From positions 39,727 to 103,726 of the forward strand of contig CALAIW010000005.1 in assembly GCA_937922705.1 (NCBI GenBank): DNA of 64,000 bases, read 5' to 3'. Under the pieces are notes generated by a model. It made no database searches, had not been told where the DNA came from, and saw only the letters and a program-made list of their open reading frames with translations. Shown one piece after another: positions 27,749 through 29,075 of the stretch. Each line of letters begins with the position of its first letter. The first letter of the stretch is position 1. A program made the position numbers and the translations under genes. The DNA is from an uncultured bacterium (GTDB lineage Bacteria; Atribacterota; Atribacteria; Atribacterales; Caldatribacteriaceae).

Positions 27749-29075
27749 GATACCACCGTCCCTTCGTACGCCGGCGCAAATGCGCCGGCGGAATCCCCAT
27801 TTCTTCGCGATACAACGCGCAAGTCCTCCGGGCAATGAATATCCCTAAGGATTTGAGCCTTTCGGCAATTTCCCGATCCGAAAGAGGGTGTTCTGGGTCC
27901 TCTTCGGCAAGAAGCATCCGTATCGCTTCTTTTGCCTGGTATGAAGCATCAAAAAAGAATTTCACACTGCGAACCAGACCATCGGGAAAACGAACGAACT
28001 TTCCCTTCAAAACCTGGCACACCCCGCTGACACTTATCCCCAAAGCCTCGGCAATCTCCCCTTGGGTAAGGGGGACAAAAAAGGATGGACCGTGGCGGAA
28101 AAACTCCTTTTCCCGTTCTACGATGTACTCAAGAACTCGAAGCAGCGTCCGGTACCGGTACGCAAGGCACGAGAGAACCTCCCGTGCTTCATCGAGTTTC
28201 TCCCGGAAAAAGTGACGTTCCCCTTCAGAGAGTTCCCCCCGCCTTTTCCGCCAAAAGGAAAGCACTGTGTCGCTTATCGCCATCTGCATGGAAAAGGATG
28301 GGACAAGGACAACCTCAAACTCTCCCTTTTCAATCTCTAGGATTTCTGCATCGGGATATACGAGATTTCGCTCTTCTTGAAGGTCCTCACGCTCTCTTCC
28401 CAAGGTGCTTTCAAAGTACTGAGCTGGGGAAAAAAAGAGCTGCTCTCGATACGGTGCAAGGATACGCTCAAGACGATCTGGATTTTCGCGAAACGCTTGA
28501 AGGAGATTCGCAACGTTTTCCTGTAACCCAAGGTGCTCAAGCTGCATGTCTAAAAATTCTAAAGCGTTTCGAGCTGCAAAGCCAAAAAAGCCCGCTTCCC
28601 GGACTTTTGTGATGACGCGCTCTATAGCCTCCTCAGACACCCGAAGGGCCAAAGCGAGTTCCTCAAGATTCCCCCGCAGAAATCCTTCGTCATCGAGATG
28701 GGCAAAAAGAGCATGAACGATGCTTTTCTCCCTCTCTCCTAGTCCAGCAAGAGCCATAACCTCATCAAAAAGAAATTCCTTCCACCCTCGCTCCTTTTCC
28801 CACTGGGGAACATCCTCAAAGGGGATTTCTTTCCACCCTTGACCCAGGTATCTCCCACAACGCGGGCAACGCTCAGGATACCCTGAAAACTCTTCGCCAC
28901 ATCCAAAGCACACAATACCCTCTCGAACCTCAAGGAGGGGATTTTCTTCAAGGAGCTTTGCAAGACGCACCTCAAGCTCAGGTAGTGGCAGAGCCATAAG
29001 GTGGCTTGCCACAATCATTTTGGGAATCATCTGGTGCTTCTGCAAAGGCAAAAGGGCTGGTCGGACCTTCTTCAT
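27726..29075 (-). CDS. rpoN: RNA polymerase sigma-54 factor with internal zinc-ribbon-like insertion
   Basis: N-terminal ELEVRLAKLLEENPLLE; C-terminal RpoN-box-like ARRTCALYREEMGIPPAHLRRR; CFGCGEEFSGYPERCPRCG insert. Confidence 0.9.
   Translation of the reverse strand: MKKVRPALLPLQKHQMIPKMIVASHLMALPLPELEVRLAKLLEENPLLEVREGIVCFGCGEEFSGYPERCPRCGRYLGQGWKEIPFEDVPQWEKERGWKEFLFDEVMALAGLGEREKSIVHALFAHLDDEGFLRGNLEELALALRVSEEAIERVITKVREAGFFGFAARNALEFLDMQLEHLGLQENVANLLQAFRENPDRLERILAPYREQLFFSPAQYFESTLGREREDLQEERNLVYPDAEILEIEKGEFEVVLVPSFSMQMAISDTVLSFWRKRRGELSEGERHFFREKLDEAREVLSCLAYRYRTLLRVLEYIVEREKEFFRHGPSFFVPLTQGEIAEALGISVSGVCQVLKGKFVRFPDGLVRSVKFFFDASYQAKEAIRMLLAEEDPEHPLSDREIAERLKSLGIFIARRTCALYREEMGIPPAHLRRRTKGRWYHGYSRVS

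Follow-up and report, generated by a model that had tools for sequence, protein, structure and literature searches.

Sigma-54 (RpoN) and the −24/−12 promoter are regarded as almost unchanged across bacteria. In solved complexes, the GG of the −24 element is read by R455/R456 and the GC of the −12 element by H377, S379 and R383, with Q18 of Region I making contacts at −11 (PMC9770992). R383 is called invariant in the title of Wigneshweraraj 2001, as cited in PMC8743547. The activator takes Region I into its pore, and Region II, with its flexible N-terminal part, enters RNA polymerase (RNAP) beside the ELH-HTH (PMC10786286, PMC9770992). A cross-phylum survey of 2025 used the canonical consensus and does not mention Atribacterota in its text (PMC12316311). 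A close parallel for motility is the FlgS/FlgR/RpoN circuit of Helicobacter and Campylobacter, in which a PAS-type kinase and a single REC-AAA+ activator, with a DNA-binding domain that is missing or dispensable, accompany RpoN-dependent flagellar genes; FlgR of H. pylori, having no DNA-binding domain, acts on its promoters from solution (PMC3930126).

The locus described here lies in a 64-kb stretch of DNA (the window) from a member of the order Atribacterales that is a relative of Candidatus Caldatribacterium. It shares with canonical sigma-54 systems (E. coli, Klebsiella, Aquifex) Region I, the core-binding domain (CBD), the ELH-HTH and the RpoN box, as well as a canonical −24 element, the GG-N10 spacing and a GAFTGA AAA+ activator, on which it would depend. 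It differs from them in a four-cysteine ribbon where they have the N-terminal stretch of Region II, in R383Q, H377S, Q18K and a K to L change of the RpoN box, and in a −12 element that reads TTYATC where theirs reads TTGCW. The likeness to the FlgS/FlgR/RpoN circuit extends to the PAS-type kinase, the flagellar targets and the single activator, as a resemblance of parts. The circuits differ in that kinase and sigma-54 genes are coupled here within a che-fla cluster, that the predicted regulon also includes type IV pilin, and that the −12 element is changed.

The sigma-54 protein and its four cysteines

The rpoN gene (27726..29075, minus strand) encodes 449 amino acids and is the only sigma-54 copy in the genome of the window; its start overlaps the stop of the upstream histidine-kinase gene. 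Region I, the activator-interacting domain (Sigma54_AID, aa 12-50; 28926..29042), the CBD (aa 99-268; 28272..28781) and the DNA-binding domain (DBD, aa 289-436; 27768..28211; E 3.5e-34) are all recognized by Pfam above the cut-offs, on the minus strand and in the expected order, and the full-length sequence matches in the PDB are sigma-54 without exception. TIGR02395 also matches over the full length, at 200 bits, under its equivalog cut-off of 277. On these grounds the identity given by the sequence-only reading is borne out, and the protein is confirmed, as far as its sequence goes, as a genuine sigma-54. Region I is present at the N-terminus as that reading held, although the peptide that it quoted was too short, the region beginning upstream near L11/Q12. 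The HTH recognition helix (aa 347-360, ISVSGVCQVLKGKF; 27996..28037, minus strand) was placed by PDB match and alignment, and the RpoN box ARRTCALYRE (27804..27833, minus strand) by alignment. Tested against ARRTVxKYRE, the box keeps RR and has L for K across the whole order.

Directly after Region I stands a zinc-ribbon-like motif, C56-x2-C59-x10-C70-x2-C73, whose cysteines map exactly to 28857..28910 on the minus strand. All four cysteines are present in 13/13 full-length orthologues, which span four families of the order and go down to an identity of 42% with the window protein, so the CxxC-x10-CxxC pattern is not a product of chance. An AlphaFold2 model built on 35 sequences (mean pLDDT 81) predicts the ribbon block as compact and confident, with short strands (pLDDT 81-87). 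It is followed, ahead of the CBD, by a predicted disordered segment (aa 80-96; 28788..28838, minus strand; pLDDT <50), a probable remnant of Region II, of which only about 17 residues remain beyond the ribbon. In the model, the ribbon thus stands where the flexible N-terminal part of Region II would be. The sequence-only reading had put the motif directly after Region I in place of a variable linker, and both statements hold, the part replaced being the start of Region II; cysteine conservation among orthologues and structure prediction, which it had proposed as checks, agree with it. We infer zinc binding from the cysteine pattern, since the Pfam zinc-ribbon matches are weak and under the cut-off (DZR, E 0.06 in the window protein and 0.0015 in a relative). 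A dispensable or length-variable Region II has a parallel in the RpoN of Rhodobacter capsulatus, in which this region is shortened (PMC10786286).

Ribbon-bearing RpoN in other phyla and the probable role of the ribbon

Ribbon-bearing RpoN was sought elsewhere with a profile of Region I plus the ribbon. Such proteins also occur in families f83, f22, f127, f212 and f208 of other phyla, and the ribbon begins 5-8 residues past NPxLE in all ribbon-bearing families aligned. One small phylum has it in 7/7 genomes and a second small one in 3/3, and a third phylum has it in f83, f256 and f257; the sister-class genomes of the Atribacterota phylum have an ordinary RpoN with no cysteines. In an RpoN tree computed without the ribbon columns, ordinary ribbonless RpoN forms one group (97/99) and the ribbon forms all fall outside it, as do two ribbonless long-branch sequences. 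The window protein belongs to the zinc-ribbon subfamily through both the ribbon right after Region I and its tree position. With the members in f83, f22, f127, f212 and f208 it shares a CPxCG-like ribbon and the same side of the tree; it differs from them at R383, which they keep and which is Q in the order of the window. The ribbon is most simply read as gained once, long ago, and lost later, although the long branches keep this tentative. Several f83 members (G267, G420-G424) have two distinct zinc-ribbon RpoN-like ORFs per genome.

The sequence-only reading had also presented the ribbon as not known from any characterised sigma-54. This stands for the sigma-54 structures matched in the PDB, none of which has a ribbon, and for the literature searched, with subscription journals largely outside its reach. 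The motif is not unique, being carried by other phyla, and the homologue search and phylogeny that the same reading had suggested place its carriers outside the ordinary RpoN group. To our knowledge, no ribbon has been reported for the RpoN of R. capsulatus. A prior description of a zinc-ribbon sigma-54, or of a changed −12 code, may exist. The subfamily would add a folded domain, missing from all solved structures matched, exactly between the stretch of sigma-54 on which the activator pulls and the stretch that is threaded through RNAP.

Most probably the ribbon serves as a structural module that stands in for the flexible first part of Region II, a functional relation that is drawn by analogy from the structures of other sigma-54s. 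This role is preferred over one in initiation, in which the ribbon would dock on RNAP or promoter DNA near the HTH, or would act as a folded knot halting the AAA+ threading of Region I. An initiation role is plausible, if less likely than not. The ribbon lies between Region I, which the activator draws into its pore, and Region II, which enters RNAP beside the ELH-HTH (PMC9770992, PMC10786286), and its cysteines are strictly conserved across phyla; however, ribbon-bearing RpoNs serve canonical as well as altered promoters, so reading the −12 bases would not be the ribbon's job. That the ribbon senses redox state or metal and thereby gates the motility sigma factor is, in our view, unlikely. 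CPxCG-type ribbons are usually structural, the AhpD-like (CMD) gene that overlaps rpoN within the genus is missing from the cluster in other families, and the ribbon is retained in phyla with different neighbours and promoters; these points weigh against what would suit a sensor, namely the CxxC-x10-CxxC pattern in a strictly anaerobic host, that same CMD gene, and a CxxC past the H-box of the coupled kinase in every relative read. Virtually no weight can be given to the idea that rpoN is a degenerating or mis-assembled pseudogene with cysteines placed by chance, an idea already refuted by conservation across the order: 13 sequences from 13 genomes have an intact ORF with invariant cysteines and functional residues, even though the family is strongly divergent (branch 1.64). 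A frameshift does occur directly past the ribbon in a fourteenth genome, that of Ca. C. saccharofermentans (L038, G003:C64:1289-1528), but the ribbon is whole there and its frame intact, so the break resembles an assembly error and is probably one.

The putative motility promoter element and its predicted readers

The upstream regions of flgB across the order share TTGGCA, followed at a fixed distance by TTTATC or TTCATC. The conserved element, YTGGCA-N5-WTTYATC, lies directly upstream of flgB, flhB, the cheA operon, flgF/G and type IV pilin genes, and elsewhere in the order also precedes chemoreceptor genes. Searched as the pattern TGGCANNNNNWTTYATC, it has three matches in the window compared to 0.05 expected, all on the minus strand and all putative altered sigma-54 promoters: TTTGGCAAGATATTTCATC (22707..22725) upstream of the flgB operon, found by alignment as well, TGGCAGATTTTTTTATC (5375..5391), 38 bp before the flhB start, and TGGCAAGGATTTTTATC (33907..33923) upstream of the cheA-cheY-HK-rpoN operon. 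Among regex-defined orthologues the element accompanies flhB in 13/13, flgF/G in 6/6 and pilin in 3/3 cases, and at flgB it is present in eight of nine genomes, the ninth having it further upstream; frequencies inside the pattern are partly forced, because it was defined from the same loci (the flgB alignments) that were later counted.

Numbered T-26 G G C A-22, N5, W-16 T T Y A T C-10, the element has the −24 half, the 10-nt spacing from GG to the dinucleotide and the TT at −15/−14 of canonical sigma-54 promoters. At −12, the invariant GC is replaced by YA, followed by TC. The non-canonical promoter spacing proposed in the sequence-only reading therefore fails: the spacing is canonical and it is the −12 sequence that is altered. 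A sigma-70 −10/−35 reading was rejected as well, the gap from TTGGCA to TTTATC being just 7 nt, and so was the TTGC after the TTGGCA of the window's flgB as a −12 element, which lies 6 bp too far downstream and is not conserved in relatives. An inverted repeat, GCAAGAT-ATTTC-ATCTTGC (22701-22721), overlaps the flgB promoter of the window and gives a misleading extra TTGC; it is not conserved among relatives.

Genome-wide promoter scans consisted of pattern matching only. Raw counts of the pattern, 97 in 16 genomes with sigma-54 and 52 in nine without (partly one repeated element), were rejected as evidence, the numbers in sigma-54-less genomes being similar and their sites in other places. Location, unlike raw count, separates the two groups. 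None of 14 element sites inspected in sigma-54-less genomes precedes a motility gene, and the pilin orthologue is preceded by the element, exact or with 1-2 mismatches, in 9/12 genomes with sigma-54, three lacking it there, compared to 0/4 without. The canonical pattern TGGCAY-N5-TTGCW outnumbers its reversed control by 27 to 0 in sister-class genomes and by 17 to 1 and 16 to 1 in f83 genomes; in the order the counts are 39 and 26, which is no clear enrichment. No canonical sigma-54 promoter was found in the 64-kb window, where scans for canonical and shifted −24/−12 elements returned scattered matches only, mostly intragenic. The window RpoN is filed as a sigma-54 variant because its −12 element is TTYATC and the canonical pattern is not clearly enriched.

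Reader and read element thus appear to have changed in one and the same promoter half. The RR that reads −24 is kept in 52/52 aligned sequences. In Klebsiella sigma-54 numbering, H377 and R383 correspond to S348 and Q354 of the window protein; R383 is Q in 13/13 sequences of the order and R in the 39/39 other aligned sequences, ribbon-bearing or not; the same 13 all have S for H377, and Q18 is K19 throughout the order. Since all domains are present, the change of R383 to Q is a sequence variant inside the RpoN family and no ground for exclusion from it. The ribbon itself was rejected as a reader of the −12 element or a cause of the odd promoter, a tie suggested from the letters that does not survive, because the zinc-ribbon RpoN of f83 retains R383 and f83 is enriched for canonical promoters.

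Alternatively, YTGGCA-N5-WTTYATC may be the site of another motility regulator, with sigma-54 using canonical promoters that went undetected. The −12 half, unlike every standard sigma-54 consensus, is in keeping with this, but we hold it to be quite improbable. Three of its features, namely the −24 half, the TT at −15/−14 and a spacing of exactly 10 nt, are sigma-54 traits, the element tracks sigma-54 and is missing from the pilin promoters of sigma-54-less genomes, canonical promoters are neither clearly enriched in the order nor found in the window, and the residues reading −12 are changed where those reading −24 are not. Going beyond an altered sigma-54 promoter as such, the order may have a naturally re-specified sigma-54/promoter pair (−12 GC to YA; R383/H377 to Q/S) on an unrecognised cross-phylum ribbon subfamily, with the ribbon taking part of Region II's initiation role; we offer this combined reading tentatively, as a serious possibility to which we give somewhat under an even chance. 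The literature searched, which again reached few subscription journals, describes no sigma-54 lineage whose −12 code is changed. A lineage in which the −12 code and its readers have changed and −24 is intact would be a natural test of −12 reading and melting, and the altered pair would provide an orthogonal sigma/promoter pair. An altered −12 would also explain why standard consensus scans overlook such a regulon.

Gene neighbourhood, activator and proposed mechanism

On the minus strand of the window, cheA (30888..32903) and cheY (30516..30881), both assigned by synteny, and a PAS histidine kinase gene (FlgS/NtrB-like; 29072..30511), translationally coupled to rpoN, belong to the same cluster as flgB, flgC and fliE (21579..22683), the head of the flagellar operon. 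The gene order cheA-cheY-kinase-rpoN-flgB-flgC-fliE-fliF... recurs in all families of the order, the kinase gene always directly preceding rpoN; the Caldatribacterium genus has purK and hflKC as an insertion ahead of flgB. Across the order, FlhA is found where sigma-54 is and is missing where it is missing, apart from exceptions confined to incomplete MAGs, and nine genomes lack both. Sigma-54 and the flagellar genes are thus gained or lost jointly in the order. The cultured relative Thermatribacter velox has flagellar genes, although its isolate is described as non-motile (PMC11227167).

Genomes with sigma-54 have one strong activator (EBP) gene each (E ~1e-76), apart from a few incomplete ones in which it is absent or found as fragments only; the only one in the genome of the window is at L097:4820-6145 (G000 contig 6). 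The activator is a REC-AAA+ protein with GAFTGA, and its Fis-type HTH (HTH_8) is matched at positions 1-32 of 42, the recognition helix missing, in 11/11 members of the order. No strong activator was found in the checked sigma-54-less genomes G015 and G017; the GAFTGA activator is lost together with sigma-54, a gene co-loss that makes it a candidate for dependence. Both genomes have a divergent REC-AAA+ homologue (L064, L065) with no GAFTGA and an intact-looking Fis HTH, which presumably acts independently of sigma-54.

The model that we favour with good confidence combines a sole, motility-dedicated sigma-54, a structural ribbon, a changed −12 specificity and kinase-activator control. The gene would be the only sigma-54, dedicated to motility, of a heat-loving Caldatribacterium-related Atribacterota bacterium, and its ribbon would in all likelihood be a structural zinc site, constitutively occupied, on the RNAP surface close to the entry of Region II. 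Sigma-54 would bind the canonical −24 element via the conserved RR of the RpoN box, while the HTH, with R383 changed to Q and H377 to S, would read TTYATC instead of TTGCW. The PAS kinase, its gene coupled to rpoN, is the probable phosphate donor of the single strong REC-AAA+ GAFTGA activator, which, like FlgR of H. pylori, may open TTYATC promoters from solution, largely without an enhancer site. The predicted regulon comprises genes for flagella, chemotaxis and type IV pili plus the operon of rpoN itself, and because that operon carries such a promoter, rpoN would be under positive autoregulation.

In Caldatribacterium species, and in no others, a carboxymuconolactone decarboxylase/AhpD-like gene (27419-27835) overlaps rpoN at its 3' end; being confined to that genus, it was rejected as a redox partner. 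The kinase (29072-30511) has a CPAC past its H-box, and a CxxC is found there in 12/12 relatives read, with variable neighbouring residues; this segment is likely a DHp hairpin, and the CxxC is possibly an inter-subunit metal or disulfide site.
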